Positions 1-44,600 of a stretch of 64,000 nt of DNA are shown piece after piece. How positions within the stretch are numbered: the stretch's first letter is position 1; the number at the start of each line of letters is the position of its first letter. The notes below the pieces were generated by a model. It ran no database searches. It was given only the letters and a program-made list of their open reading frames with translations, and was not told the origin of the DNA. The stretch is from positions 1 to 64,000 of the IMG/VR virus record IMGVR_UViG_3300031111_000002; one strand, 5' to 3'. The position numbers and the translations under genes were made by a program. Origin of the DNA: a virus.

Positions 1-16
1 CACAAAAGGGGTGAGC

Positions 17-292
17 ATGGACAGGGAAGAAGCACACCACTTATTGAGAAATGCGAAGTACACGTTCGCGAAGACGATGCCGAAGAATCCTCATTACTAT
101 TCGGTACGAACCGAATGGGAGGATGAAGCGGTATTTGAGGACTTGGTAAAGTTCATCCGCTTGAACGGGCATCGAGAGAAATATGGTGGTCGGTGGTATA
201 CCTGTTACGTCTTCGACGGTTGGAAGTACTGGACTATGGGGTGGCCGGTACGCGAAACGACGATAATCAACCGCTGTGAGGCACCGGAATGA
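17..292 (+). CDS. conserved small phage protein
   Basis: Encodes 91 aa, rich in Trp and Tyr, with a C-terminal core containing YWTMGWP. From memory, similar short proteins occur in many phages, often beside methylase or ParB-like genes; the function is unknown. ATG at 17 is preferred over the GTG at 11 because AAAGGGG sits at the right distance upstream. The gene overlaps the following methyltransferase-like gene by 4 nt, so the two are translationally coupled. No membrane segment, signal peptide or zinc motif is visible. Confidence 0.7.
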   Translation: MDREEAHHLLRNAKYTFAKTMPKNPHYYSVRTEWEDEAVFEDLVKFIRLNGHREKYGGRWYTCYVFDGWKYWTMGWPVRETTIINRCEAPE

Positions 293-903
293 AATTGCGA
301 GATTTCGAGATCCACAGTGCCTTACACAAAGAGATTGACACCGGGGGCGAAACATGCTCCCGGTTTGAAGTAGGAAACTCGATCGGTTTCGTGTATGACG
401 TAGCGTCTTCATTCAGTCTGCCTCATTACTTCCAAAATTGCGATATCTTCTATGCTGCTCCACCGTGGCAAAAGGGATTTGAACGATTCAACGAACGGGC
501 TGGCGTAGCCGGTGGCGCAAGTTGGCGACGATTTCAAGATGCGGTTATCAGGATGATTGAACTTCGCGGAGACCGGTCTTTCATTCTGTTCTGTGGAGCT
601 CAATGGAAGAAGCGATGCCCGAAGGCGACGTTTGAGGTGAAGACGAATATCACTAAGGTGAGTTATGCGACGGCGCTTGTTTACACGAACAAGAACTACG
701 ACTGGGACAAGGTTGATTATTCTGGATCCGAATCCATCCTGAATGATTTGGCCGCGATGCCCTTCAGGAGAATTGGCGACTTCATGTGCGGATACGGCCA
801 GTCAGGGCTAACATTCCACAAGGCAGGTAAGGAGTTCACGATCAGTGACATAAACAGCAAGTGTATCTGGGTTGCCCGGGAAAGGATAATTGGAAGTGAT
901 TAA
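289..903 (+). CDS. degenerate DNA methyltransferase paralogue
   Basis: 204 aa, paralogous to the next two genes. It has the beta-class order: a motif IV-like segment (DIFYAAPPW) near residue 60 and a motif I-like Gly-rich loop near the C-terminus (FMCGYGQSG, then ISDIN). In the two neighbours motif IV reads SDPPW; here the catalytic Asp is replaced by Ala, and the usual DPCCG of motif I is changed too. It probably cannot methylate alone and may act as a regulatory or DNA-binding partner, or be decaying. It overlaps the next gene by 8 nt. The family call is firm; inactivity is inferred from the missing residue. Confidence 0.7.
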   Translation: MKLRDFEIHSALHKEIDTGGETCSRFEVGNSIGFVYDVASSFSLPHYFQNCDIFYAAPPWQKGFERFNERAGVAGGASWRRFQDAVIRMIELRGDRSFILFCGAQWKKRCPKATFEVKTNITKVSYATALVYTNKNYDWDKVDYSGSESILNDLAAMPFRRIGDFMCGYGQSGLTFHKAGKEFTISDINSKCIWVARERIIGSD

Positions 904-1522
904 AAGTATAGGTCCTCATAGAGTTTCCTGCATGGATCTCATGGATGGATTGGGAGATCTTCTGCAAGGACAGAAAGTGGATATATTCTATAGCGATCCT
1001 CCTTGGGGACAAGGATTGCTGAATTACTTTCAGACGCTGAATACGAAACAAACTGGCGCCGAGCGAAAAATGATCGACAATGATTGCTTCATCCGGACAT
1101 TTTTTGATCTTGCGCGGCGAACAGCCAAAGATCTGATACTGGTGGAGTACGGTGAGAAATGGGCAGATCAGATTCAGACGGTGGCCAGATCGGTTGGTTT
1201 GCAATCTCACGGTATTGCCAAAGGACGATACGGGTCGAAGTCGAAGTGGCATGTGATGGATCTTCACATATTCTCGAAATCTGGCGACGTGGTGTTACCC
1301 AAAGGGTACCTCGAAAGTATGCGTGAGCGTTCATCCTTCGACTTCATAACAACGGCTCTAAAGCCATTTGCGGAGCCGGGGTATGTAATACTCGATCCAT
1401 GCTGTGGGAAGGGCTTGACGGCACGTGCGGCAAGACACTACGGGATGACATTCCTCGGGAATGAGATTAACCTAAAGAGGTTAAGAAACACGATGAAAAT
1501 CTTGGAAAGGGCGCAAGTGTGA
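896..1522 (+). CDS. DNA methyltransferase (DPPW, beta-class order)
   Basis: About 208 aa. Motif IV DIFYSDPPWGQG lies near residue 35 and motif I ILDPCCGKG near 165, followed by GNEIN for cofactor binding. The IV-to-I order is that of beta-class N6-adenine or N4-cytosine methylases, which transfer a methyl group from SAM to DNA. GTG at 896 is chosen because it aligns with the start of the downstream paralogue (IKxIGxH) and AAAGGA lies about 9 nt upstream; a TTG at 890 is possible. No target recognition domain is obvious, so the protein is minimal in size. It overlaps the following paralogue by 4 nt. Confidence 0.85.
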   Translation: MIKSIGPHRVSCMDLMDGLGDLLQGQKVDIFYSDPPWGQGLLNYFQTLNTKQTGAERKMIDNDCFIRTFFDLARRTAKDLILVEYGEKWADQIQTVARSVGLQSHGIAKGRYGSKSKWHVMDLHIFSKSGDVVLPKGYLESMRERSSFDFITTALKPFAEPGYVILDPCCGKGLTARAARHYGMTFLGNEINLKRLRNTMKILERAQV

Positions 1523-2184
1523 TTAAGACAATTGGAGAACACAAGGTGAGATCCGGTTCCATTATGAACGGGATCGGAGATCTCATGTCAGGCAAGAAGG
1601 CAGACATCTTTTTCAGTGATCCACCTTGGGGTCAGGGGAATCTCGGTTATTGGAACACGATGAAGAAGAAACAGACCGGATCTGGCGTCAATGATGTAGA
1701 TAACGAAGATTTCCTAAAGAAGTTCTTCGAGACGGTTCACCGTTATGCGAAGGGGATCGTTCTGGTTTACTACGGAGTGAAATACCGCGAGGACTTCGCA
1801 CGTTTGGCCGTGAAAAGCGGACTCATTAATCGTGGTCTGGTCACTGTCGGGTACAAAGGCGATGGCAAGGTTTACCCGATGGATCTCCATATTTTCAGTA
1901 AGTCGAAGGGTGTCCGGGTCCCGTCCGAGTTCGCCAAGTCGCTTCGCGGCAAGTATTCCGGGGATCTGGCCGAGGCGATTGTCGCTCCGTTTGCTGTGAA
2001 GGATGGCATCCTTCTCGATCCTTGTTGCGGTCAGGGTACGATGGCATATGCCGCTATTCAAAACGGCATGAAGTTCCGTGGAAACGAACTGAACGAGAAA
2101 CGCGCAAAGGATACTTCCGAGCGCATTGAAGGGCTCGTCAAACGAAGCGGAAACAATGACGAGGATAAGGACAAAGAAGAATAA
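1519..2184 (+). CDS. DNA methyltransferase, second intact paralogue
   Basis: 221 aa, closely similar to the preceding gene: DIFFSDPPWGQG near residue 35, LLDPCCGQG near 168 and GNELN after it. GTG start overlapping the upstream TGA. The C-terminus carries an acidic, lysine-rich tail absent from the paralogue. Two intact copies and one degenerate copy in tandem point to local duplication, possibly giving a hetero-oligomeric enzyme. Expected role: self-modification of phage DNA against host restriction, or marking DNA for other phage functions. Base specificity cannot be read from the sequence. Confidence 0.85.
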   Translation: MIKTIGEHKVRSGSIMNGIGDLMSGKKADIFFSDPPWGQGNLGYWNTMKKKQTGSGVNDVDNEDFLKKFFETVHRYAKGIVLVYYGVKYREDFARLAVKSGLINRGLVTVGYKGDGKVYPMDLHIFSKSKGVRVPSEFAKSLRGKYSGDLAEAIVAPFAVKDGILLDPCCGQGTMAYAAIQNGMKFRGNELNEKRAKDTSERIEGLVKRSGNNDEDKDKEE

Positions 2185-2233: not shown

Positions 2234-3460
2234 ATGGCGCGTAAAAAGCGTAAAAGCACTGCTGTATACAAGAAAAAGGACGATGGATTAAGGATATACC
2301 TAAACAAAACTGTATTTGATGCAGCCCTTGATAGAATCCGGTATCTGTTTTCTGAGTTTGAAAATATCGTTGTCGGCTTCAGTGGAGGTAAAGATTCTAC
2401 CGTTTGCTTCAACCTGACTATGATGGTTGCCCGGGAAATGGGGCGACTGCCGTTGAAGGTCATGTTCATAGATCAGGAAGCCGAATGGGAAGGCACGATC
2501 AAAACGGTCGAGCGGGTAATGACTCACAAAGACGTTGAACCATACTGGCTTCAGGTTCCTATGGTCATTACGAATAACGCTTCCAGCTTTGATCGCTACA
2601 ATCATTGCTGGGATCCAGATCGCAAGGATGAATGGATACATCCTCAGCACCCTTTGTCGATCAAGGAAAACACCTACGGTACAGAGCGTTTCCACGACTT
2701 ATTCACACGCTTCATTTCTATCCAGTTCGAGGATCAGAAGACGGCGTTGATCGGCGGCGTGAGAACTCAGGAATCTCCAAAACGTTTGGTGGGGCTCACC
2801 CAGCATCCTACCTACAAGTGGGTTACATGGGGAAAACAATTCACAAAAAGGCATTTTGTTTTCTACCCGATCTACGACTGGAAATCTCACGATATCTGGA
2901 AAGCGATCCACGACAACCGCTGGCACTACAATCCTGTGTATGATGGTCTTTACCGTCATGGCGTGACACTGAAGGATATGAGGATTTCCAATCTGCATCA
3001 CGAAACCGCGCTTCAGAATTTATTGTTAATTCAGGAGATTGAACCGCAGACGTGGGACAAAATAGCACATAGGATTGCTGGCGCGAACACGATAAAACAC
3101 TTGCGGTTAAAGAGCTTTTCTAGGCCTGACGTTCTTCCATTTATGTTTGAAAGTTGGGGAGAATACTGTTATTATTTAATCGACAAGATTATTCAGGAAG
3201 AAGACAACAAAATCGCTATGTTGCGCAAGTTGAGATCCTTTGAAAAAAGGTACACTCACGAAGCGATTAGAGAAGACATGTATAAAGTGGCTATAAACAC
3301 TATACTGTCAAGCGATTGGGACTTCACGAAGATGGCGAACTTTTCGTGTCAAGCGCCCGTTTTCGTTTACCTGAAATGGAAAAACAGACCGGACTTCAGG
3401 CCGGGTGGATCTCCATCTCTTCTGAAGTACATCCCCGTGGAGGCGCTGCCAAATGGATAA
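2234..3460 (+). CDS. PAPS reductase-like PP-loop protein (IbrA-like)
   Basis: 408 aa. The N-terminal third is a PP-loop ATP pyrophosphatase domain with SGGKDS at residues 50-55, the signature of PAPS reductases and DndC-like proteins. The central part has many conserved His, Trp and Tyr residues (DWKSHDIWKAI, NPVYDGLY), as in the DUF3440/IbrA branch. That branch is known beside ParB-like IbrB proteins; E. coli IbrA/IbrB affect expression of immunoglobulin-binding proteins, and the biochemical activity is not settled. Start at ATG 2234 after GGAGGG. The last 8 nt overlap the ParB-like gene. Sulfur modification of DNA or tRNA is possible but unproven. Confidence 0.82.
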   Translation: MARKKRKSTAVYKKKDDGLRIYLNKTVFDAALDRIRYLFSEFENIVVGFSGGKDSTVCFNLTMMVAREMGRLPLKVMFIDQEAEWEGTIKTVERVMTHKDVEPYWLQVPMVITNNASSFDRYNHCWDPDRKDEWIHPQHPLSIKENTYGTERFHDLFTRFISIQFEDQKTALIGGVRTQESPKRLVGLTQHPTYKWVTWGKQFTKRHFVFYPIYDWKSHDIWKAIHDNRWHYNPVYDGLYRHGVTLKDMRISNLHHETALQNLLLIQEIEPQTWDKIAHRIAGANTIKHLRLKSFSRPDVLPFMFESWGEYCYYLIDKIIQEEDNKIAMLRKLRSFEKRYTHEAIREDMYKVAINTILSSDWDFTKMANFSCQAPVFVYLKWKNRPDFRPGGSPSLLKYIPVEALPNG

Positions 3461-4106
3461 GAATGAACTTGTGAAAATGTTGCGTGAAGAACTTTTGGGA
3501 TCGACAAACAAACTGGAATTGATAGAGGAAGTGCGCGAAGTTTTGCACGAGATCTGCCCATTGAATGCGCAGCCAATTGACAATGTGCGCTGGGTTCCGA
3601 AGGAAAAGGTCGAGCCGAACGATTACAACCCGAACAGTGTTGCTCAGAAGGAGATGGGGCTTCTTTATCACAGCATCAAACAGGATGGTTACACGCAGCC
3701 GATTGTCACGATCTACGACGAGGCGCGAGATAAATACGTGATCGTAGACGGATTCCACCGGTATTACGTTGGTACGACGTGCGAGGACATCACTCAGGAC
3801 AATAAAGGAATGCTCCCGGTGGTTGTTATCAAGAAGGATATCAACGAGCGCATGGCGGCGACTGTGAGACATAACAGGGCACGTGGTGAGCACAGCATTG
3901 CTGGCATGAGTAATCTGATATTCAACATGCTTGAAAACGGGTGGTCTGATGCCGAGATCTGCAATCACATCGGTCTGGAGCCGGAAGAACTTCTGAAGCT
4001 GAAGCATATCACTGGATTCTCCAAACTGTTTGAGAACGTGGAATATCAGAAGGCTTGGGAGACAAAGCGGATGATCCGTTTGCGAATGGAGCACAAGGAT
4101 GAATGA
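3453..4106 (+). CDS. ParB/Srx-fold protein (IbrB-like)
   Basis: 217 aa. The ParB N-terminal domain fold is shown by DGFHRYY at residues 99-105 and RHNRARGEH at about 139-147, the nucleotide- or phosphate-binding boxes of the ParB/sulfiredoxin superfamily. A helical region after residue 150 (GWSDAEICNHIGLEPEEL) looks like a helix-turn-helix. It overlaps the PAPS-reductase-like gene upstream by 8 nt and the small terminase downstream by 8 nt, so all three are co-translated. Family members can be nucleases, CTPases or regulators; here the pairing with an IbrA-like partner is the best clue. It is unlikely to be a plasmid-type partition protein because no ParA is present. Confidence 0.82.
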   Translation: MDKNELVKMLREELLGSTNKLELIEEVREVLHEICPLNAQPIDNVRWVPKEKVEPNDYNPNSVAQKEMGLLYHSIKQDGYTQPIVTIYDEARDKYVIVDGFHRYYVGTTCEDITQDNKGMLPVVVIKKDINERMAATVRHNRARGEHSIAGMSNLIFNMLENGWSDAEICNHIGLEPEELLKLKHITGFSKLFENVEYQKAWETKRMIRLRMEHKDE

Positions 4107-4698
4107 ATCAGCCGTAATCCCGGTCTTATCGGAAGACGGTGAAAACTTCGCAATGGTAGCAGGTGCCGGGGACGTTATCCGTCGTTTTCTCAACACGACT
4201 GGGTTTGGGATAAACACTATCAAGGATTGCGACGTACCAGCGTTCATCGCTATGTGCGAAGCATGGGGTGAGTACCGTAGGTGCTGCAATCTTCTTGAAG
4301 GTAATCCCGGGGTATACAAAACGACAACTGGCCAATGGAGAACTCACCCTATCGCCGCTGCTCGAGATCGCGCATGGAACCGGTACTACGTTCTTGCGGG
4401 AAACTTCGGATTTCTTCCATCAGCCCGTGGTGAAACGAATGCGAAACAGGAACAACCTGAAGACGATTCAATGGAAACAGTCATTGAAGTCGGTTTGGAA
4501 TTCTTGCCAGAATACATACAACATGAATACGCGGACTTGATCGAAAGCCCAGTTTCCATTACAAAAGGGGTGATACAGGACTGGATACGAAGGGCGTCTT
4601 TTCATTTTAATAAAGATGGAGCGACGAAGGCGATGGTCAAAGCGCGAGGTACCCGGTCTTCCGCAATAGCAAGGGCTATATTGCTTTTCGGGGAATAA
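4099..4698 (+). CDS. terS: terminase small subunit, P27-like
   Basis: 199 aa. The helical middle matches the pattern of P27-family small terminases: a CEAWGEYRRC segment near residue 53, then THPIAAARDRAWNRYY and FGFLPSARG. Small terminases recognise packaging-initiation DNA and regulate the ATPase-nuclease large subunit. The C-terminal 80 residues form a further helical domain. It lies directly before the portal gene, a normal place, but the large terminase is 27 kb away. An alternative small-subunit candidate is the zinc-ribbon gene just before the large terminase. Confidence 0.65.
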   Translation: MNESAVIPVLSEDGENFAMVAGAGDVIRRFLNTTGFGINTIKDCDVPAFIAMCEAWGEYRRCCNLLEGNPGVYKTTTGQWRTHPIAAARDRAWNRYYVLAGNFGFLPSARGETNAKQEQPEDDSMETVIEVGLEFLPEYIQHEYADLIESPVSITKGVIQDWIRRASFHFNKDGATKAMVKARGTRSSAIARAILLFGE

Positions 4699-4720: not shown

Positions 4721-7036
4721 ATGTTAAAAAAAATACTGAATATGGGTTTTTCTTTTTCCTCTCTAGGAAAGGGTCGAGAAGAACCATCGACGCTTGTAGC
4801 TGATCTTGACGAGGCTTTTGCAAACATCTCGCCAGAGGACGCTGCTTTCGTTGTGCAAGAAATAGCCAGAATGCGAGCGAACGCATTGAAGGCCGGAACC
4901 CCGGTGACGGCTACACTCGATTCCATAACAAAACAATATGAACGGGACGATAAACTCACTTTCCCAAAAATCGAGAAAATGATAAATGATGAACAGATAC
5001 ACTCAGCCCGAAGGACAATCGAACTTGGGCTGACTGCTTATCCGTGGGGTTATCTGAATCCAGACCCGGCTATTCAAGAGTTCGTCATGGATGCTTCCAA
5101 CGCTTGTCATGGTGGAAGGGCCGGGTTGATCCGAGAGCTTCTTTACGCATTGGATTACGGGTTCACAGTTTCCGAGCGCGAGATGGCCTACAACACGGTT
5201 CACAAAAAGATCTTCATTCCACGCATAAAAACCTTGCGTCATGCAAATGTAACCTTCAACACGAACGCTAAGGGGACTGATATCGACTGGTTTGGCCAGC
5301 CGGTTCATTATGAACAGCCGGACGGTTCCGAAACTGATGTCGATGCTAATCGCCTGATGATATGGACTTATCAAGCCAAGTATGGAGATCCGTATGGGAT
5401 TCCTGCACTTAAACCGTGCTACCGCGCTTGGTTCATAAAGAAGGCGTTGCTCATGGCTTGGGCTACTTCGTGCGAACGACATGGCGCTCCATGGGTGACT
5501 GCAGAATCTCCGGACGGAAACGAAACCTTCATGCGTCGAGTGTTGAACGCTTTGAGGTCGATCACTACCGACTCCGTTGTGGTTACTCCACCCGGCGTGA
5601 AGACAAACATTACACAGCCGAACTTTTCATCTGAAACGTTCAGTAGTTATGTTGCGTACCTCGATCGTCTGATCTTCCGTGTTTATACCATGCCGTCATT
5701 GGTTCTTGGTGAGGGCGAAGGTAAGGGCTCGTATGCACTTGGCAAAACTCATTTCGATCTGTTCCTTTGGAACCAGCTTGACCTTCGCAACCAGCTTGCG
5801 GAAGTTCTGTTGAAGCAATGGGTCGCACCGCTTGTATTCACGAACTTCGGCGACAAAGCGCCACTTGGAAAAGTGGTTTGGCCGAGGATGAAGGGTGAAT
5901 CTCTTGCCGGTTTGCTCGAGGTTTATGCCCGGTTTGCAAACAAGGGCCTGTTGACTTACCCGGATTTGGAAGTCACGAACCTGTTCAGGGAAGCGTTGGA
6001 TCTTTCACCGATGACCGAGGAACGTTTGCCGGAAGCACTTGAAAAGTATTATGAATATCTACGGTTGCAAGCGGAAGCATCTGCAATTACCAGCGAACCT
6101 AAATCCCGGGCTGAAGAAGCCCGGGAATCTCGCCCAGTTTCGCTTTCAATTGCTGAACCCCTGGAATCGTTTGCAGTTACTCCACAGGAAGTGGAGAAAA
6201 CAATGGACTCCGATACTGATCGGATGTCTGCCAGAATCCGGAAGGTTTACGATTCTGTCGAGTTGAACCGGCCTACCCCTGCACAGATCCGCGACATAAA
6301 ATCGTATGAGAACAATCTGGATCCGGATGAAGCGGCAGTTGAAACACTTGCATACAAGGTTGCCGTCCGTGCATTCCCGGCTAGGCGGTTTGAAGCGTCG
6401 TTCCAAGCCGCTATAGAGGCGCCTATGGGATTTGCGGCGACTCATGGGGTCCGTGATGCGTCGAAGCAAATAACCGATCTCAAACGCAAGAAGAAGGATG
6501 AAAACCAGGATGCTCCGGCGATTGACATTTCTGATATCGACGTTTACCCGGAAGACGCTGTTGAGGCATATACCGTCCAATACGCGGAGTTCAAAACCAA
6601 GCAAGAGATTTACGCCATGTCCAATACAATCAAAAGGTATATTGGAGATCTTGGCACTGGTGAGAAGACATTTGATATAACCAGCTTCATGGAGACGCTG
6701 AACAAATCATTGGATCTCAGCAAATCGAGATCCGAAACCATCGCGCAAACTGAAGTTACCCGGGGTTATAACCTTGGCCGGCTCCATCGCTACAACGATG
6801 ATCCTGACTTCATTAGTGGATACAGGTTCAGTGCAATCCTAGACAAAAGGACTACGCCATACTGCCGTGACATTGACGGCAAACAAATCCAGCGTAGCGA
6901 AATGCGTGAGGAACGACTTCCACCTTTCCACTTTTCTTGCAGAACGATAATCGAACCGGTGACTGAGTTTTCGGAGCGGCAGGACTTTGATGTCGTTCCG
7001 GAACCCCCGGAAGATTTCCGAGGCGAGGTACAATGA
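4721..7036 (+). CDS. portal protein (DUF935) fused to MuF head-morphogenesis domain
   Basis: 771 aa, far longer than a usual portal of about 500. Residues 1 to about 450 match the Mu gp29/DUF935 portal: a YGIPALKPCYRAWF segment, a LGEGEGKGSYA loop and an amphipathic wing. A charged linker of about 200 residues follows. The C-terminal 110 residues match the Mu gpF/SPP1 gp7 minor head domain (QTEVTRGYNLGR near 675, TPYCRDIDGK near 712, HFSCRTIIEP near 737). In Mu these are separate genes. The fusion would tie the ejected or internal minor head protein to the portal vertex. ATG at 4721 follows GGAGC. Confidence 0.88.
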   Translation: MLKKILNMGFSFSSLGKGREEPSTLVADLDEAFANISPEDAAFVVQEIARMRANALKAGTPVTATLDSITKQYERDDKLTFPKIEKMINDEQIHSARRTIELGLTAYPWGYLNPDPAIQEFVMDASNACHGGRAGLIRELLYALDYGFTVSEREMAYNTVHKKIFIPRIKTLRHANVTFNTNAKGTDIDWFGQPVHYEQPDGSETDVDANRLMIWTYQAKYGDPYGIPALKPCYRAWFIKKALLMAWATSCERHGAPWVTAESPDGNETFMRRVLNALRSITTDSVVVTPPGVKTNITQPNFSSETFSSYVAYLDRLIFRVYTMPSLVLGEGEGKGSYALGKTHFDLFLWNQLDLRNQLAEVLLKQWVAPLVFTNFGDKAPLGKVVWPRMKGESLAGLLEVYARFANKGLLTYPDLEVTNLFREALDLSPMTEERLPEALEKYYEYLRLQAEASAITSEPKSRAEEARESRPVSLSIAEPLESFAVTPQEVEKTMDSDTDRMSARIRKVYDSVELNRPTPAQIRDIKSYENNLDPDEAAVETLAYKVAVRAFPARRFEASFQAAIEAPMGFAATHGVRDASKQITDLKRKKKDENQDAPAIDISDIDVYPEDAVEAYTVQYAEFKTKQEIYAMSNTIKRYIGDLGTGEKTFDITSFMETLNKSLDLSKSRSETIAQTEVTRGYNLGRLHRYNDDPDFISGYRFSAILDKRTTPYCRDIDGKQIQRSEMREERLPPFHFSCRTIIEPVTEFSERQDFDVVPEPPEDFRGEVQ

Positions 7037-31187: not shown

Positions 31188-31837
31188 TGAAAACGGTACT
31201 TGATTTCAACTACCCGGTCGCACTCACCGACGAAGACGACCGAGAATCTTTTCGCATCCAAGACGGATATGGTGGGATGGTTCACGTAACTAAGTGTCGT
31301 CGGTGCGAGAATCCCGCTCAACGAGGTTCAATCTATTGTCCTGACCATGAAACGTCCGTAGCCCATACAATCGGATCTGCCCCTGCTGCAGCAAGCCGTG
31401 AGCCGCTTCAACACGAAACGTTATACGCTTCGGCGTTCACTGATCCGAAAGACCGGGTTTTGTTTGAGACGTTTCTTCAAAGCAAAGGTAACCTTGAAGC
31501 CGAGATCGCGCTTCTAAAGGTTGAAGCCGTGAAGGTTGTCCAAGCCGATTCCGCTGAGTTCAAAGGTACTCGCCAGAGAATACAAGCGCTTACCCAAATC
31601 ATTGAGACAATGCGGCGCCTCATAATGACTCACCACGATCTCTTTGAGAAACTGGAAGTGTCGGTATTGATCGACTTGGAAATGGTAGGACGTATCAGCG
31701 GCAAGCTCTCTGAAGCGATGGATCGAATGAGCAATATCATAGCCGACAACGTTCCGGGCGATAAACGCGACAAGGTTGCTGACGAAATTATGGACGTAAA
31801 GCAATGGCTTGCTGGTGAATTGAGGCGGCTTACATGA
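31187..31837 (+). CDS. zinc-ribbon helical protein beside large terminase
   Basis: 216 aa. Residues about 37-53 hold a Cys4-like zinc site with His (CRRCENPAQRGSIYCPDHE). The C-terminal 140 residues are helical (LETFLQSKGNLEAEIALL and further). It overlaps the large terminase by 4 nt, the usual place of a small terminase, so a DNA-binding role in packaging is plausible. No homology to small terminases can be claimed from the sequence alone. Confidence 0.6.
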   Translation: MKTVLDFNYPVALTDEDDRESFRIQDGYGGMVHVTKCRRCENPAQRGSIYCPDHETSVAHTIGSAPAAASREPLQHETLYASAFTDPKDRVLFETFLQSKGNLEAEIALLKVEAVKVVQADSAEFKGTRQRIQALTQIIETMRRLIMTHHDLFEKLEVSVLIDLEMVGRISGKLSEAMDRMSNIIADNVPGDKRDKVADEIMDVKQWLAGELRRLT

Positions 31838-33588
31838 AACGGGATAAGATCGGAATTCCGTTGGCTCGTCTTCCGGAGTCCAGTTTGAACATGGTATCCA
31901 CCTTGATCGCAGCCAAACTGGACGATCCCATAAACAAGTGGAAGATGGATCCAGTTAAATTCGTTGCCAGCGTTCTTCATTGGAGATTCCCACAGGTTCT
32001 TCTGGCGATCCTTTATCATATTCTTGATTGTGTACGAAACAAGCGCAATATAAGAATAGTTCTTATAGGGCCTCGTGGCGGCGGCAAGACCGTCATTCTT
32101 TCAATTGTCGAATACCTTCTTTCACTTCTATACAATTACGACTTCTTGAACTTGGCCGGCTCGTTAAGCCAAGCGAAGATCATTCATGCATATCAACAGG
32201 AATTTTATAAGAAGACTGATTTCAAGAATGTCAAAAACGACAGCATCTTCCAAACGGTTTTCACTACCGGGGCATGGATTTCTTGCGTAGCAAGTTCAAG
32301 TACTCAGGTTCGTGGTAAACATCCGGGCGGAAGTAATTTGAGAATGGGTAACACGTCCGGCAAGGATTCTAGGTACAAAAACAAAGACGACATCGACTTC
32401 GATCAACTCGTTCCATACTGGGATGATGTTCAGGTTCCAGAGCCCGGTAAGGTTGACGATAGCGGCAGACGCGGCACAAGGGGCGGCGGACTTGTAATCG
32501 ACGAGGAATGCGAAGCCGATCCTGAAGTAGTCCGTGACGCTTTGCCAATGGTCAACTCGGCCTTTCCGTCTGTAATCATAAGGGCATCTACTTTCCACGA
32601 ACTGAACGGTACTTTCCAAGACATCGTAGACCACGCTGAAGAACGAGGATACACTTTGTTCAAGTGGGATATCTTCGATGTTATGATGGCTTGCGATAGA
32701 GATTGTTCAACGTGTTTCGACGAGTTCGCGAAAGATTCTGTCCAAGACGTTGTTGATCCGGACACTGGGCAGGTAGTAACACAAATCTTGAAAAAGGCGT
32801 ATTGCGGTGGCAAGGCCAAGTTCAACGTAAACGGATTCATAAGACCGGAAGAAATCTTCAACCTTTGGATCGAGTGCGGACAGGACAAAGAATGGTTTGA
32901 GGTTGAATTCATGGGTCGCCGTCCGTCTGCCCGGGAAACAAAACTCGCACCGTATGTTGAGTCCATCTTCGTTGATGAAGACATAACGATTGAAAAGGAC
33001 TGCCCAGTTTCAGGCGGGATCGACTGGGGTATGCAAGCCGGCCACAAGATCTACATCGCTGCTCCGACCGGAGTCGGTGGGCCTAAGTACCTTATCGTCA
33101 CTCAAAGTTTAGCCGGTAAACCGTGCGACATCGTTTGTGATGAAGTAGAAAAACAGGATCTCAAACGCTTTGAGAAATGCGTTATTTATACTGACGGTGA
33201 GAACGTATACAACAACGACCGGCTTCACTTGGTTAATCACCCGGACGGATCTCCGTTAAAGGTTTTCCCGACGAACTTCGCTCAGAACAAAAGGGCTTTG
33301 TTGTTCCCGAATCTATTATCCCATGTCCAGAACGAAATGTTCTTGATACCGCGAAGCGTTAATGGAGCTCGATTCCCAGAAAGAACAATCAGGAATCTGA
33401 AACGAAAGATGAAAAAGTATCGGCTTGAACCTCGCGGAATGCGGAAGATGGAAGGCATGGACGAAATTGACGGTATTATGCTTGCCTTGTCTCACTGGGG
33501 AAATGCCAAACGGAAAACTGGAACCTACGGTAAAATGCCAGAGATTCTTACTGGCGGACGTGCAATAACGAACTTCGGAGGACTGTGA
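31834..33588 (+). CDS. terL: terminase large subunit
   Basis: 584 aa. ATPase domain: Walker A GPRGGGKT at 79-86, Walker B with catalytic Glu GLVIDEE at 219-225, and a coupling segment after it (RASTFHELNG). Nuclease domain: an acidic residue in GGIDWGMQAG near 390 and another in IYTDGENVYNN near 450, as in RNase H-like terminase nucleases. It translocates DNA into the prohead and cuts it. Odd position: at the end of the late operon, 27 kb from the P27-like small subunit and the portal. Confidence 0.9.
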   Translation: MKRDKIGIPLARLPESSLNMVSTLIAAKLDDPINKWKMDPVKFVASVLHWRFPQVLLAILYHILDCVRNKRNIRIVLIGPRGGGKTVILSIVEYLLSLLYNYDFLNLAGSLSQAKIIHAYQQEFYKKTDFKNVKNDSIFQTVFTTGAWISCVASSSTQVRGKHPGGSNLRMGNTSGKDSRYKNKDDIDFDQLVPYWDDVQVPEPGKVDDSGRRGTRGGGLVIDEECEADPEVVRDALPMVNSAFPSVIIRASTFHELNGTFQDIVDHAEERGYTLFKWDIFDVMMACDRDCSTCFDEFAKDSVQDVVDPDTGQVVTQILKKAYCGGKAKFNVNGFIRPEEIFNLWIECGQDKEWFEVEFMGRRPSARETKLAPYVESIFVDEDITIEKDCPVSGGIDWGMQAGHKIYIAAPTGVGGPKYLIVTQSLAGKPCDIVCDEVEKQDLKRFEKCVIYTDGENVYNNDRLHLVNHPDGSPLKVFPTNFAQNKRALLFPNLLSHVQNEMFLIPRSVNGARFPERTIRNLKRKMKKYRLEPRGMRKMEGMDEIDGIMLALSHWGNAKRKTGTYGKMPEILTGGRAITNFGGL

Positions 33589-34374: not shown

Positions 34375-35090
34375 GTCAACCTTTTGTATTTCCGGGGACT
34401 TTCCTTAGTGACTATCTGATCTCTTGTGAATCCGGTTTGATCCATCACTTGCTCTATAGCGTCCATTGCATTTAGGTTTTCCTTGCTGCCATGTATTAAA
34501 TAAACCTTCTTCACTGTGGTCTTATCAATCGAATTGAGAAACCGTATGCAGCCCCGTACACTCATATGAGTCGTGAACAAACGCGAGCGATATGGACAGT
34601 CGGTTATCAGATCTTCCCTGTAATTGCATTCGATCATTATGTGAGTAAGACCGTCGAACTTCGCGCGGATCAACGCGGTGTCGCTTGCATACAAGATCCG
34701 GTCGCCTTTCGGAGTGCCAATGAGAAAGCACAGTGGTTGCGTCCCGTCGTGAACAGCATCGAATGGAACGACTGCCCACCGTTTCTTGATTACGACTGTC
34801 TTAGACGGTTCTACATGCACGATACGATGACCTGTCAAACCAGCGTCGTCTGCCGTACCTTTTGACATGTATAGATCGACTCCGCGTTTGGCCAGTTCTT
34901 TAGCGCCTACAATGTGATCTCCATGAGCATGTGAGATTAAAACTCCATCAAGCGATGCTACTCGATGATCCAACGCTTTGTAGATCTGACGGGCGGGAAG
35001 ACCGGCCTCAATTAGAAGCCGACCTTCGCCGTTTGTCAAAAGGTAACAATTACCTTCAGAACCAGTTGAGATGATCCTGATGTCTACCAT
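34371..35090 (-). CDS. MBL-fold metallohydrolase, putative recombination nuclease
   Basis: 239 aa. Metal-binding motif SHAHGDH at 53-59, a further His near 115 (FDAVHDG), Asp in ILYASDTA, and a distal HGSKENL. This is the metallo-beta-lactamase fold of the YycJ/RNase-like branch. Small phage MBL proteins often follow recT and a SMC-like ATPase; here the three genes overlap, so it may supply the 5'-3' resection that RecT needs. The start overlaps the RecT end by 7 nt. The enzyme class is firm; the substrate is inferred. Confidence 0.8.
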   Translation of the reverse strand: MVDIRIISTGSEGNCYLLTNGEGRLLIEAGLPARQIYKALDHRVASLDGVLISHAHGDHIVGAKELAKRGVDLYMSKGTADDAGLTGHRIVHVEPSKTVVIKKRWAVVPFDAVHDGTQPLCFLIGTPKGDRILYASDTALIRAKFDGLTHIMIECNYREDLITDCPYRSRLFTTHMSVRGCIRFLNSIDKTTVKKVYLIHGSKENLNAMDAIEQVMDQTGFTRDQIVTKESPRKYKRLT

Positions 35091-36046
35091 TCAGGTTCGT
35101 CCGGGTATTCGTCGTCGTCCGTTTCCGTCATTGGTTCAGGAGCCGGATCGGGATCGGGATCGGGATCGGGAGCAGGAGCTGGAGCGGGAGCAGGGGCAGG
35201 AGAAGTGTCCGGCTGTTGAGTGTCTTCTGGAACAGGACCAAATTCAGCGTCAACAACTTCGCCCGTTGGTTCGACTCCGTCCGGAAGTCCCGGGTAAGGT
35301 TCTGTTGGTGCGAACCCCGGTGCTTCGATTCCAATGTGAGGCGGTTCTTCCTGCATGTAGTCCTCGTTGAAATCGTCACCTATTCCGCGTTCCATGTTGA
35401 TCGCCATTTCCATTTCAGTGGAGATGACACCGTACTTCTGTATCAGTCGTTTGAGAACGGTCTTCATTCCCATGTCGTTGATATGGCTTTTCCACATAGG
35501 GTTGCGAGGCGCATACTTAGCGCCATGAGCAATCGCTTCGTCGATAGTCATTTTGATTGTTTTCGTGAAGCCGTTGATAAGGACAAAGTGAGCGAAGTAT
35601 CCAGCGACCGCATCACTTTTTCTTTCGCCGTTCATTTCAATTTCTCCGGTAAGCCGGCATTCGTGCGAAAGTTCGCCATCGTAGTACTTGTCCACGTTGA
35701 GATATTTGTAGGCGCCTGTGTTCATCGCCAAACGCCACCAGCCCTTCCAGCCGATGACAAGCGTAGGAACGTTCGCGAACGGGAGAATCGAAGCATGTCC
35801 GAGTGCTTTGCTGATTGTCAATCCCAGCGAAGCGGCTTTAAGTGCTTCTACGACAACCAGTTTCGGGTTGCAATTCCGGAGTTTCGTGTCCCCAGAATAC
35901 AACTCGATCAAGGACGTTTTGAACGATTCAGATTTGTTGACACCGAGCGTGGCCTGTAAGCGTTCTCCGATGACAGGATCGCTTACCGCTTCGGTGATTC
36001 TTTCCATTGGTGATTGTTTTGCTTCCACAAGATCATTGTTTGCCAT
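35084..36046 (-). CDS. recT: RecT-family single-strand annealing recombinase
   Basis: 320 aa from ATG 36046, chosen because GGAGG lies 5 nt upstream; ATG 36058 would add four residues. The RecT core runs from about residue 20 to 220 (LGHASILPFANVPTLVIGWKG, KYAPRNPMWK, LKRLIQKYG). The last 100 residues are an acidic Pro-rich tail with (AP)n and (DP)n repeats, perhaps for contact with SSB or the ATPase. RecT anneals complementary strands during phage recombination and replication. It lies between a SMC-like ATPase and an MBL nuclease. Confidence 0.92.
   Translation of the reverse strand: MANNDLVEAKQSPMERITEAVSDPVIGERLQATLGVNKSESFKTSLIELYSGDTKLRNCNPKLVVVEALKAASLGLTISKALGHASILPFANVPTLVIGWKGWWRLAMNTGAYKYLNVDKYYDGELSHECRLTGEIEMNGERKSDAVAGYFAHFVLINGFTKTIKMTIDEAIAHGAKYAPRNPMWKSHINDMGMKTVLKRLIQKYGVISTEMEMAINMERGIGDDFNEDYMQEEPPHIGIEAPGFAPTEPYPGLPDGVEPTGEVVDAEFGPVPEDTQQPDTSPAPAPAPAPAPDPDPDPDPAPEPMTETDDDEYPDEPEW
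35141..35200 (+). repeat. GGGATC/GGAGC-type hexanucleotide repeat inside recT
   Basis: About four tandem copies of GGGATC followed by GGAGCA/GGAGCG-type hexamers. On the coding strand they encode the Asp-Pro and Ala-Pro repeats of the RecT tail. Length can change by slippage in steps of two residues without breaking the frame. Confidence 0.75.
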
Positions 36047-36057
36047 GTTTGCCTCCA

Positions 36058-37920
36058 TTAGATATATTTCGTTTTGAGTTTCTTCTGCCCCTTCGCAACA
36101 ACCAATTTGATGAATTGAGTGTTTTCGGGGAACTTGATTTCAGTTACGCTTTCCGCATTGTCGATAATGAGAATCGGGTTCATCTTGTAGTATTCCTGAA
36201 GGACTCCGATGATTTCAAGACCGGCGTTCACACGCGCCCCGAGATTGAGACCTGACCCGAAAGGAATACCGTTGAAGGATGCTTCACAAATTTCCTCTAC
36301 GCCTCCGTTCATTTGAGTCCTGAACAATGCGAAGTTGATGTTTTCAAACTTGCGGTTCAAAGACGCCTCGATAAGTTCGGATTGATTGGTCTGATACGTT
36401 TCGCAAAGTGCGAGTTTCTTTTCGACCTTTTCAAATTCAGTTCCAAGACGGATTTCTTCTTCTTTGAGTTCTTCCACCCGTTTTTCAGCATCGGCACTTG
36501 CCTCAATCCTCGCCCATTCAGTTTTGAGTTTGTCAAGTTGCCGTTCCGCTTGCTGAAGTTCTGCCTTCTTTTCAGAAATGGCTTTCGACGAATCTGGATC
36601 CGTGGAAAGTGCTCCAGTCGCCTTTCGATTCTGTTCGATCAATACTTCCAGTTCTTCGTCGAGTTTGGACGTGTCGGGAGCGGTGAGTTTGTTCAGGGCT
36701 TTACCATGTTTGCTGACTTCTGCAGTCAGTCCATCGGTTTTGGACATAAGTTCTTGTCGTTCCGACTGAAGCCTCTGCATACGAGCTTTCGCCGCTTTTC
36801 CGTTCCTTGTTATGTTTTCGAGTGTCGCGGTTCTCGATGCCCGGAATCTAGCTTCTGGGATCGGCTGTCCGCACGAAGGGCAGTTCCCGGGTTGAACCCT
36901 TGCTGCTTTGCGATATTCATCTTTCAAGGCGTCCACTTTCGTTACCGCTTCGGCAACCAGTTCGCCGTGTCGTTCAACCTTCCTGTGATGATCCGATAAC
37001 ACGTGCCGCGCTTCATTGTATGCAGTCCTAGCGGCATCTACAGCGGCGTAGTGTTCTTTCCAGATCCGATCCTTCTCAATTTGTACTTCTTTGATTGCTT
37101 CGCCGATTTTGAAAATGAATGCCTTGTTTTCGGAGTTGTCCGGAACAGGAACCGATACCAGTTCTTCTCTCAGCCGTTCGACCGTTTGCTTCGCGGTTTC
37201 AAGTTCCTGTTTCACCCTGTCCACATTTTCAGGCGGGTAGATCCGCTTCATTTGCTCGTCGATCCGTGGGGAGATTTCTGTGATTTGCCGGTTGATGTCG
37301 GTGCGTTCCTGACGTTTTGCCTCCCAATAAGATTCGACCGTAGCACCGTCAAGGTCGTCCTCCAGAGGTTTCAAATCCGGGTTATGGGTAAACACCTCTT
37401 TAGGCCCTACAAAATCGCAGAAGTTACACAGGATCTCACGTCGTTTCTTCCAATGGAGTTCAGACGAAAAGAACATTGGATCAGTGAGAATCCTGAAAGT
37501 TTCAGAATCGCCGAAGAATCTTTCGATTTCAGCGTCCCAAACTTTCGTTTTGACTGAGCCGTTCCCGATGAAGTAGCCGATAGTATGTGAAGTCAATTCC
37601 TTCACCGAAGATCCCCTACGTCTAGTCCATTTCTCATTGTAGGTTTTCTTGAAGGTGATGAGATGTCCTTCATGTTCGATCTTCATTCCAACCGAGGTTT
37701 CGAGCCCGTGCTGTTCGGTTCCGTTTTCATTCAGCGGCTTGATTGAAAACTTCGCGGATCCAGCCGTATCTTTTCCGGTTACGAGCCACGAGATGGCATC
37801 GCCAACTGTTGTCTTCCCAGTTCCGTTGTCGCCTGTAATTTCAACAGACTTACCATCGGTGTTAAGGATCAGCTCTTTGATCCCCTTGAAATTTACGATC
37901 CTGATTTCTGTGACCTTCAT
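36058..37920 (-). CDS. SMC/Rad50-like AAA ATPase (SbcC-type)
   Basis: 620 aa. Walker A GDNGTGKT at 30-37, long coiled coils either side of a CPSC zinc-hook motif near 345, and a C-terminal Walker B LIIDNAES near 580. The arrangement is that of small Rad50/SbcC-like proteins found in phages next to recT. It probably handles DNA ends for the recombinase and the MBL nuclease. It starts within an ATGA overlap after a 41-aa gene, and its stop overlaps the region of the recT start. Confidence 0.88.
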   Translation of the reverse strand: MKVTEIRIVNFKGIKELILNTDGKSVEITGDNGTGKTTVGDAISWLVTGKDTAGSAKFSIKPLNENGTEQHGLETSVGMKIEHEGHLITFKKTYNEKWTRRRGSSVKELTSHTIGYFIGNGSVKTKVWDAEIERFFGDSETFRILTDPMFFSSELHWKKRREILCNFCDFVGPKEVFTHNPDLKPLEDDLDGATVESYWEAKRQERTDINRQITEISPRIDEQMKRIYPPENVDRVKQELETAKQTVERLREELVSVPVPDNSENKAFIFKIGEAIKEVQIEKDRIWKEHYAAVDAARTAYNEARHVLSDHHRKVERHGELVAEAVTKVDALKDEYRKAARVQPGNCPSCGQPIPEARFRASRTATLENITRNGKAAKARMQRLQSERQELMSKTDGLTAEVSKHGKALNKLTAPDTSKLDEELEVLIEQNRKATGALSTDPDSSKAISEKKAELQQAERQLDKLKTEWARIEASADAEKRVEELKEEEIRLGTEFEKVEKKLALCETYQTNQSELIEASLNRKFENINFALFRTQMNGGVEEICEASFNGIPFGSGLNLGARVNAGLEIIGVLQEYYKMNPILIIDNAESVTEIKFPENTQFIKLVVAKGQKKLKTKYI

Positions 37921-42498: not shown

Positions 42499-42834
42499 TT
42501 ACCATCTCCTTTCATTTTCTATTATTTGCATGGCGTCTTCTAAGCAATCTGCCCACCCGGACAAACCTCCGCAAACCTTGATTAAACGAAGAAACTCCAT
42601 TTGATCTGGCCTCGGTTTGTCGCCCGGTTTCTTTACCTCGATCGCTACATATACGCCGATCTTCTTTCCCACCATGTCTGGTGTTATCTCCACAGGGTAA
42701 CAGCCGATTATGTCCGATATCGCTGACACCCCTGCCAGAGATTCCCTCATTTTCAGCCATATCCCTCCCTTCTTCCGAATCTTCTTCAGTATCGAAGTTT
42801 GGATTGCGTATTCACTGGATCCTTTTCTTTTCAT
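42499..42834 (-). CDS. VRR-NUC nuclease
   Basis: 111 aa, ATG overlapping the helicase stop (ATGA). It shows the VRR-NUC pattern: SEYAIQTSILKKI with the first acidic residue, SDIIGCYPVEI, then VYVAIEVKKPGDKPRPDQ, where E and K form the catalytic core of the PD-(D/E)XK fold. Phages often carry it next to a SNF2-type helicase; it may cut branched DNA. Complete, no truncation. Confidence 0.88.
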   Translation of the reverse strand: MKRKGSSEYAIQTSILKKIRKKGGIWLKMRESLAGVSAISDIIGCYPVEITPDMVGKKIGVYVAIEVKKPGDKPRPDQMEFLRLIKVCGGLSGWADCLEDAMQIIENERRW

Positions 42835-44600
42835 AATTTCCCTGCCGCAAGATCTCGTATTGATATGATGCACTTGGCAAGGTTTTTCTTACGCTTCAGC
42901 GCGGTCAACACGGCTTCATCTATAGTTCCCTTGGCAACGATGTCAACAATGGTAAGATCGTTCTTTAGACCAGTCCTGTGAGGCCTGTCTTCCGATTGTT
43001 GTCGATGTTCCAAGTCATACGAGTTGCTGAAGTATACAGCATAACTGGCTGCAGTTAAAGAGATTGACCGTCCAGCGGCTTGTACGGTTGCGACGAATAC
43101 CCTGCACTTGTCGTCGTTTTGAAACTTCGATACAGCCGCCCGTCTATCATCGACGCTCATTCCCCCCACGATCTTCGCCGGATCTTCGCCCATGTAAAGG
43201 AACATATCGTAGACGCGGTTGCAATCAGGAACAAAGCACGTCCAGACAATCATTTTCTGATTAGGTTTCAGGTTGTGAAAGAAATTCTTTAGCGCATCGA
43301 GCTTCGGCTGTGCATCGAAATAGTTTTCGCTGGTTTGCCCTGTCACCTCGTCGTTGTGGAAAAAGAATCCGGACGTTATCTGGCGCAGTTTCATAACCCG
43401 GGTAATGGCCGTCTTCGTCAACAGAACCTTGTCACCGATTTCGGCCACGTTCTTTTTGACCAGATCTTTGTAGAACTTCATTTGTTTCTTTGGAAGTTCG
43501 ATATACAATTTTGCGTAAAGTTTCTCCGGCAAGTCCATGCACTCGTCCTTGGTATATTGAACTGAAATAGTATTGATCTTGTTCCGGATCTTTTTTTCAG
43601 ATCCGTCTTTCAATACCCAACTTGGCCAGTCAACTTTCCCGCCAGTTATCGCATTCAACTCAACGTTTTCATCGTAGAAGTATCTGTTCCTGAAAGCGGT
43701 TGCATCCGTGCCGAAGGTTGCCCCGTCGTCCAATAACAAAATCTGGGAGAACACGTCTTCCACAGAATTCAGGATCGCGGTTCCAGAAAGTATGATTCTG
43801 AACTCCGAAGGTTTGATTACATCCAGTATTGCTTGGGTACGTTTCGCCTTGATTGATTTCAACAAGTGCGATTCGTCAATGATAGCGACCTTGGGCTTCA
43901 GTTCTTCAAACTTCGATTTGGCTACACGTATGCTGTCGAAGTTCGCTACAACGAATACCGGTTTCGTTTTGGATTCAAAGTAAACTTCCTCGATCCTATC
44001 GAGCCGTTTCTTCGGTGTCAATCCCCCGGGTACGATCATAACCTTCATGCCCGGTGCATATTCTTGATATTGTTCTTCCCAAACGAATATGGATTCGGTA
44101 GGCCCAGTGCAAAGGTAAACCCCGTTTCCAAGCAATCTCATCCAATGCAGCAATGCTTGTATCGAGGCCTTTGTCTTACCCGCTCCCATCTCAACGAAGA
44201 ACGCGATTCTACCAAGACATATAGCACTTGCGGTCATAACCCTTTGATGATCGAAACTTGGTATATGTTCTTTCACGCAAGGTTGGTAAGATTCAGGGAT
44301 ATCCCCAGTCAATCTCATGTGATGAAGTATCTCGGTTCGTTCCCTGATATGTTTCCTCATGCGCTTTACAGCATTGACCCGGTTCCTGAACGCATCGTCA
44401 AACGATATTCTGTAATGCTTTCTGAAGTGCTCAAAGACACGCATTGACTCAGGGGTGATCGGAACTGTCCAAGATTTGTTGCCCGGGATGAAGCGTCTTC
44501 CGTCGATGGTCTTGACGAGCTCTATCACACGTTCATTGTAATCGAACGAGATCCCGACCTTCCCCTTTGAGTCGTTGTATGTAAGACGGATGTTCACCAC
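42831..44600 (-). CDS. SNF2-family helicase
   Basis: 589 aa, GTG start at 44600 or 44597. Residues 1-60 resemble a HARP-like module (NKSWTVPITPESM). Helicase core: Walker A GAGKT at 139-143, DESH box in IIDESHLLKS, SGTAILN motif III, and motif VI QSEDRPHRTG near 555. This family translocates on double-stranded DNA and remodels forks. The overlap with the primase upstream and VRR-NUC downstream places it in the replication unit. Confidence 0.92.
   Translation of the reverse strand: MVNIRLTYNDSKGKVGISFDYNERVIELVKTIDGRRFIPGNKSWTVPITPESMRVFEHFRKHYRISFDDAFRNRVNAVKRMRKHIRERTEILHHMRLTGDIPESYQPCVKEHIPSFDHQRVMTASAICLGRIAFFVEMGAGKTKASIQALLHWMRLLGNGVYLCTGPTESIFVWEEQYQEYAPGMKVMIVPGGLTPKKRLDRIEEVYFESKTKPVFVVANFDSIRVAKSKFEELKPKVAIIDESHLLKSIKAKRTQAILDVIKPSEFRIILSGTAILNSVEDVFSQILLLDDGATFGTDATAFRNRYFYDENVELNAITGGKVDWPSWVLKDGSEKKIRNKINTISVQYTKDECMDLPEKLYAKLYIELPKKQMKFYKDLVKKNVAEIGDKVLLTKTAITRVMKLRQITSGFFFHNDEVTGQTSENYFDAQPKLDALKNFFHNLKPNQKMIVWTCFVPDCNRVYDMFLYMGEDPAKIVGGMSVDDRRAAVSKFQNDDKCRVFVATVQAAGRSISLTAASYAVYFSNSYDLEHRQQSEDRPHRTGLKNDLTIVDIVAKGTIDEAVLTALKRKKNLAKCIISIRDLAAGKL

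Follow-up and report, generated by a model that had tools for sequence, protein, structure and literature searches.

IbrA/IbrB as the probable core of a DNA-hypermodification cassette beside the small terminase gene of a complete phage genome

The PP-loop protein IbrA and the ParB-fold protein IbrB, encoded by overlapping genes between three methylase genes and the small terminase gene of the phage analysed here, probably lie at the core of a DNA-hypermodification pathway in phages, and the operon that carries them is accordingly best read as a likely hypermodification cassette. This reading, made by sequence comparison, was adopted because group transferases are linked to IbrA and because the hypermodification families Mom, TET/JBP and TAGT replace the cassette at the same slot in terminase-matched phages. 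The same two lines of evidence give good support to the proposal of an earlier sequence-only reading that the region is an undescribed DNA-modification island. Usually filed under 'sulfur metabolism', the IbrA/IbrB family probably constitutes a system for modifying DNA.

The stretch of DNA under analysis (the window) comprises nucleotides 1-64,000 of an IMG/VR virus record with a total length of 67,534 nt. The two ends of the record are identical over 127 nt (window 1-127 and record 67408-67534); when it is closed on this exact terminal repeat, the genome measures 67,407 nt, and it is complete and circular or circularly permuted. After closure the gene order is ParB2-orfA-MT1-MT2-MT3-IbrA-IbrB-TerS, with successive gaps from ParB2 to TerS of -4, -4, -14, -4, +49, -8 and -8 nt. 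The genes discussed are listed below with the principal match or model for each.

Record 66774-67421, ending at window position 14, plus strand: ParB2, a second ParB-like protein (phrog_620, 2.3e-47).
11-292, plus strand: orfA, a conserved protein of 93 aa (family alignment; AF2 pLDDT 95.5).
289-903, plus strand: MT1, a SAM-dependent methyltransferase-like protein with an altered catalytic motif (MTS, 1.1e-4).
890-1522, plus strand: MT2, a predicted DPPW N6/N4-type DNA methyltransferase (PF01555, 2.4e-5).
1519-2184, plus strand: MT3, a predicted DPPW N6/N4-type DNA methyltransferase and paralogue of MT2 (PF01555, 1.2e-4; phrog_67, 7.6e-12).
2234-3460, plus strand: IbrA, a predicted IbrA-type PP-loop ATP-pyrophosphatase of 408 aa, PAPS_reduct plus DUF3440 (Pfam, PHROG, family alignment, AF2).
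3453-4106, plus strand: IbrB, an IbrB-type ParB/Srx-fold protein of 217 aa (phrog_2159, 1.6e-71; family alignment; PDB relatives).
4099-4698, plus strand: TerS, the small terminase subunit, P27 type (PF05119 Terminase_4, 3.8e-12; phrog_83).
31834-33588, plus strand: TerL, the large terminase (phrog_2, 3.6e-7).

The coordinates of the SGGKDS PP-loop and ParB-fold reading frames, and the 8-nt overlap between them, were confirmed as the sequence-only reading had given them; IbrB and TerS likewise overlap by 8 nt. Its account of the operon was right for the pair, the methylases and TerS, and left out orfA and the ParB2 gene beyond the circular junction; it also overlooked that TerL in this phage lies 27 kb downstream of TerS, so that the cassette adjoins TerS only. 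TerS itself is a downstream neighbour outside the modification core and is directly followed by a portal-MuF fusion (4721-7036; Portal_Mu and Phage_Mu_F). Elsewhere in the window, on the minus strand, RecT stands beside a 620-aa RecF/SMC-like AAA_23 protein (35087-37920), and a SNF2 helicase stands beside a DnaG-zinc-finger/Toprim/D5 primase-helicase fusion (42834-47383).

IbrA was matched by PF01507 (E 1.1e-15; 58.6 bits, cut-off 22.5), by DUF3440 (28.3 bits, cut-off 25) and by phrog_2302 (1.2e-87). Its SGGKDS PP-loop is intact, and in an alignment of 27 diverse IbrAs this motif, a DxE pair, GxRxxES..R, PxxDW and YD..G..R were invariant or nearly so. The AF2 model (pLDDT 89) was closest in fold to FAD synthase (Z 16.4), the ATP sulfurylase CysD (15.4) and APS reductase (15.2), followed by GMP synthetase, TilS and tRNA thiolases at Z about 11-12, with the NcsA/TtuA thiolases at about 11; sequence profiles agreed with this ranking (CysD 2e-10, FAD synthase 9e-9). 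FAD synthase, CysD, GMP synthetase and TilS share with IbrA the PP-loop as well as the fold, and transfer AMP from ATP with release of PPi; they differ in having known small-molecule or tRNA substrates and no ParB partner.

Database labels point elsewhere, since PF01507 and phrog_2302 ('phosphoadenosine phosphosulfate reductase', category auxiliary metabolic gene) would make IbrA a true PAPS reductase, a cysH auxiliary metabolic gene feeding host sulfate assimilation, and APS/PAPS reductases are among its structural neighbours. However, the NCBIfam cysH models scored only 16-21 bits against cut-offs of 154-165, the redox cysteine motif (C-terminal, ECGLH-type) is missing, the intact PP-loop matches that of relatives that transfer AMP, and IbrA is nearly always paired with IbrB amid enzymes of DNA-modification type, all of which makes a role in sulfate assimilation extremely unlikely. 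A DndC/SspD-like sulfurtransferase, with the island yielding phosphorothioate or thiolated DNA, a direction in which the sequence-only reading had pointed, is also very improbable. In its favour are the shared PP-loop family, a PADLOC DndC match of 8.7e-13 over part of the protein, the RxxES..R motif and the NcsA/TtuA thiolases among the structural matches. Against it, TIGR03183 DndC scored 34 bits where the cut-off is 290; no cysteine of IbrA was conserved above 63%, and neither CxxC nor C-x-L-H (C-x-L/I-H) occurred in any of 35 IbrAs; the IbrB family alignment likewise held no conserved cysteine; the closest folds were FAD synthase and ATP sulfurylase; the PF00266 desulfurase was absent from the record, although a host enzyme could serve; and no other Dnd/Ssp partner was present among the seven operon proteins scanned. 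DndC, SspD and BrxP share the PP-loop PAPS-reductase-like fold, and Dnd includes a ParB-like partner (DndB), but these proteins carry cysteines or Fe-S elements and act with a desulfurase or DndD-E, none of which was found here. Both phosphorothioation and sulfate assimilation were therefore rejected, the grounds being the motifs, the model scores and the lack of partner proteins. Because conserved cysteines and a desulfurase are lacking, a sulfur product of the cassette is unlikely, with the reservation that a host sulfur donor could serve.

In IbrB, ParB_N scored 24.5 bits, slightly below its cut-off of 26.3, and the motifs NPN, DGFHR and T-R-x-NRARGxH were invariant, in places nearly so, across the family alignment. 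The nearest solved relatives were Noc/ParB and, weakly, free serine kinase.

The remaining genes of the operon were characterised in the same manner. The GTG start of orfA overlaps the ParB2 stop by 4 nt across the circular junction. Its family alignment shows the motifs FAKTMPxxPHxY and YWTM...INR, with A20, K21, P27, H28, Y73, W74 and N87 invariant, and some relatives carry the domain as a fusion with a GNAT-like domain or a SAM-dependent methyltransferase. No Pfam family matched orfA, tblastn gave no match in cultured phages, and the AF2 model had no match in the PDB (best Foldseek E 0.39; VIA Z at most 4.4), which is no proof of a new fold. The three methylases named in the sequence-only reading are present, though their Pfam matches are weak and DPPW is kept in MT2 and MT3 and not in MT1. 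DPP was found in 42/42 aligned rows of the MT2/MT3 family. The MT1 family mostly has EPP[WYF] (E in 19/22 sequences), the glutamate standing where DNA amino-methyltransferases carry D, N or S in (D/N/S)PP(Y/W/F), and MT1 of this phage has APPW, a sequence suggesting that its activity is possibly altered or lost. ParB2 was considered as a member of the cassette core and rejected, as it is also common beside the same terminases in IbrA-minus loci; it marks the slot generally and not the IbrA cassette specifically.

IbrA and IbrB are a near-obligate pair. Among cultured phages IbrA matched 215 records and IbrB 219, two nearly coincident sets with identical leading host counts. Viral neighbourhoods were compared in 73 loci, collected in three IMG/VR searches, dereplicated at 80% identity and kept only if they had the required flanks. 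IbrB lay at most 300 nt from IbrA in 62/73 of these dereplicated loci and a group transferase at most 4.5 kb from IbrA in 64/73, with orfA upstream of IbrA in 38 and TerL downstream in 43. The transferases, which are interchangeable, were DPPW/EPPW methyltransferases, glucosyltransferases of family phrog_854, GNAT acetyltransferases and a small-molecule-type methyltransferase. A cultured example is Microbacterium phage Rasputia, with the order GT-GT-GT-acetyltransferase-methyltransferase-IbrA-(record ends)-IbrB-ParB-ParB-HTH-terminase, and smaller versions of the cassette occur in Arthrobacter phage Laroye and in the Mycobacterium Athena type. MT1 and GNAT were never seen together upstream (0 against 2.8 expected, p 0.03), and MT3 and GT were seen together 4 times against 5.8 expected; strict slot exclusivity among the transferases is not claimed, because MT3 and GT co-occur. 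In Fusobacterium phage phiFN37 (L087, 5998-12918), about 3 kb separates IbrA/IbrB from a ParB, a homologue of queuine tRNA-ribosyltransferase and a transporter for a queuosine precursor, and the queuine/queuosine genes are possibly a second (7-deazaguanine) modification set.

Control phages were selected by three large-terminase types found beside the cassette, with one IbrA+ and one IbrA- locus added from a fourth. Cassette transferases were present in 21/25 IbrA+ and 2/32 IbrA- terminase-matched loci (Fisher 1.2e-9), and orfA in 15/25 and 0/32, respectively (Fisher 1.5e-7), a contrast biased upward by the training of the transferase HMMs on IbrA neighbours. Because the transferase HMMs were derived in this way, the slot was also scanned against all of Pfam. 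Among the named families that led the results in 16 IbrA- loci were Mom (three proteins, best 3.5e-52), TAGT (three proteins, 9.4e-37) and Tet_JBP (4e-21). In a search at record level, at least one of Mom, TET/JBP or TAGT was found in 13/32 IbrA- terminase-matched records (7/16 in the first two sets and 6/16 in the third, where only Mom and TAGT were searched) and in 0/73 distinct IbrA+ records, this genome included and the third set again searched for Mom and TAGT only. The Mom domain PF25680 had no match in this genome. The difference between 13/32 and 0/73 gave a Fisher value of 2.5e-8, and p 5e-4 when stratified by terminase type; these p-values are descriptive, because the families, although external, were chosen after the Pfam scan. 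Taken singly, the first terminase type gave 0.0017 and the other two sets were not significant. Most matches lay between ParB2 and TerL, and every one was just upstream of TerL apart from a TET in L210, at a distance of about 9 kb. The slot of the IbrA cassette is a locus used by established hypermodification systems.

Mom of phage Mu (PF25680), found in the same ParB2-TerS slot of terminase-matched phages, differs from the IbrA cassette in being a single enzyme, unrelated in sequence, and never occurred with IbrA in any record tested. Systems of TET/JBP oxygenase and TAGT glycosyltransferase occupy the same slot and share the logic of a core enzyme with a decorating transferase, but their core is a 2OG-Fe oxygenase, whereas that of the IbrA cassette would be a PP-loop ATPase. 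Read by eye, the ParB2-TerS slot holds a set of ABC-ATPase, GNAT and formyltransferase-like proteins in one further locus (L301:4830-6674) and a set of 2OG-oxygenase-like, class-II amidotransferase-like and GNAT proteins in another (L322:3380-6167); both are candidates for further DNA-modification cassettes.

The position beside TerS, together with the fact that PP-loop relatives modify tRNA and small molecules, could instead indicate an anti-defence or packaging-mark system acting on a target other than DNA, such as the terminase, tRNA or a nucleotide signal. This is quite unlikely, given that TerL is so distant in this phage, that DPPW DNA methylases are present and that the cassette alternates in its slot with established modifiers of DNA bases. 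Since terminase adjacency is common to other modification systems, it may be a mere marker of the modification locus.

The neighbourhood survey proposed in the sequence-only reading, which looked for a preferred link of the pair to methylases or terminases, gave a positive result for the viral lineage of the window and a negative one for most chromosomal pairs. At bacterial and archaeal chromosomal IbrB loci IbrA was present in 80/80, a cassette-type transferase in only 11/80 and TerL in 3/80, and 68/80 pairs stood alone; a universal link was rejected on these counts, and the Streptococcus phage type of IbrA/IbrB also has no transferase nearby. Solo pairs with neither transferase nor terminase are widespread in prokaryotes, including Heimdallarchaeota (L369, L370) and Alphaproteobacteria, Lachnospiraceae and others (L367-L441). 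A tree built from 105 IbrAs required 10 changes of the cassette label, against 29 in shuffles. One clade (support 0.993) consisted mostly of solo pairs (24/30) and included the Streptococcus, Fusobacterium and Gaia phage types, and IbrA of the window fell in a cassette-dominated group. The methylase/terminase link is a feature of one lineage. For the window's lineage the modification reading is well supported by these sequence comparisons; for the solo pairs it is only suggestive.

The one phenotype on record for IbrA/IbrB, as cited, comes from E. coli, where the proteins co-activate eib genes of prophages (Sandt et al. 2002) and take their name from this activity. IbrA/IbrB of E. coli ECOR-9 and YbdN/YbdM of K-12, compared here by description, likewise place a PAPS-reductase/DUF3440 protein beside a ParB-like protein and are described as prophage-gene co-activators or as an uncharacterised operon; the pair in the window differs in sharing its operon with orfA, methylases and TerS. 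A role as transcriptional co-activators of late or packaging genes, with the methylases as independent anti-restriction genes in a common hot spot, would suit this phenotype, the resemblance of IbrB to DNA-binding ParB/Noc and the many chromosomal pairs without transferases. It is nevertheless improbable, as the catalytic PP-loop residues are invariant in the IbrA alignment, the transferases and orfA follow IbrA and not the terminase type, and the cassette is replaced by Mom, TET or TAGT. Phage annotations name the pair IbrA/IbrB co-activators, PAPS reductase or cysH. In the open-licence PMC literature, no earlier proposal of DNA modification by IbrA/IbrB was found. In phage eta, guanine was once believed to be hypermodified and there is no hypermodification (PMC3918226).

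For the hypermodification cassette, the steps beyond the modification of DNA are offered as hypotheses. IbrA would spend ATP via its intact PP-loop, adenylylating a group that sits either on a base of already replicated phage DNA or on a nucleotide precursor, while IbrB, as a nucleotide-binding protein of ParB/Srx fold, would bring the DNA or supply a phosphotransfer partner. The activated position would then be substituted, the linked transferase or transferases (methylases in this phage) would cap the product, and the modified phage DNA would escape host nucleases. By analogy with GMP synthetase or TilS, a tentative first guess is that IbrA activates a base carbonyl. IbrA/IbrB may also represent a further class of hypermodification, an idea we hold as speculative, in which a PP-loop enzyme, acting directly on phage DNA as TilS acts on tRNA, adenylylates a base, and the methyl, glycosyl or acyl caps are interchangeable. 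If such a direct-adenylylation class exists, the viral signal labelled 'cysH auxiliary metabolic gene' would in large part reflect DNA modification and not sulfur cycling. The proposed pathway gives a testable function to a large and puzzling gene pair and to the unnamed orfA family, and singles out cultured phages as places to look for an unknown DNA base.
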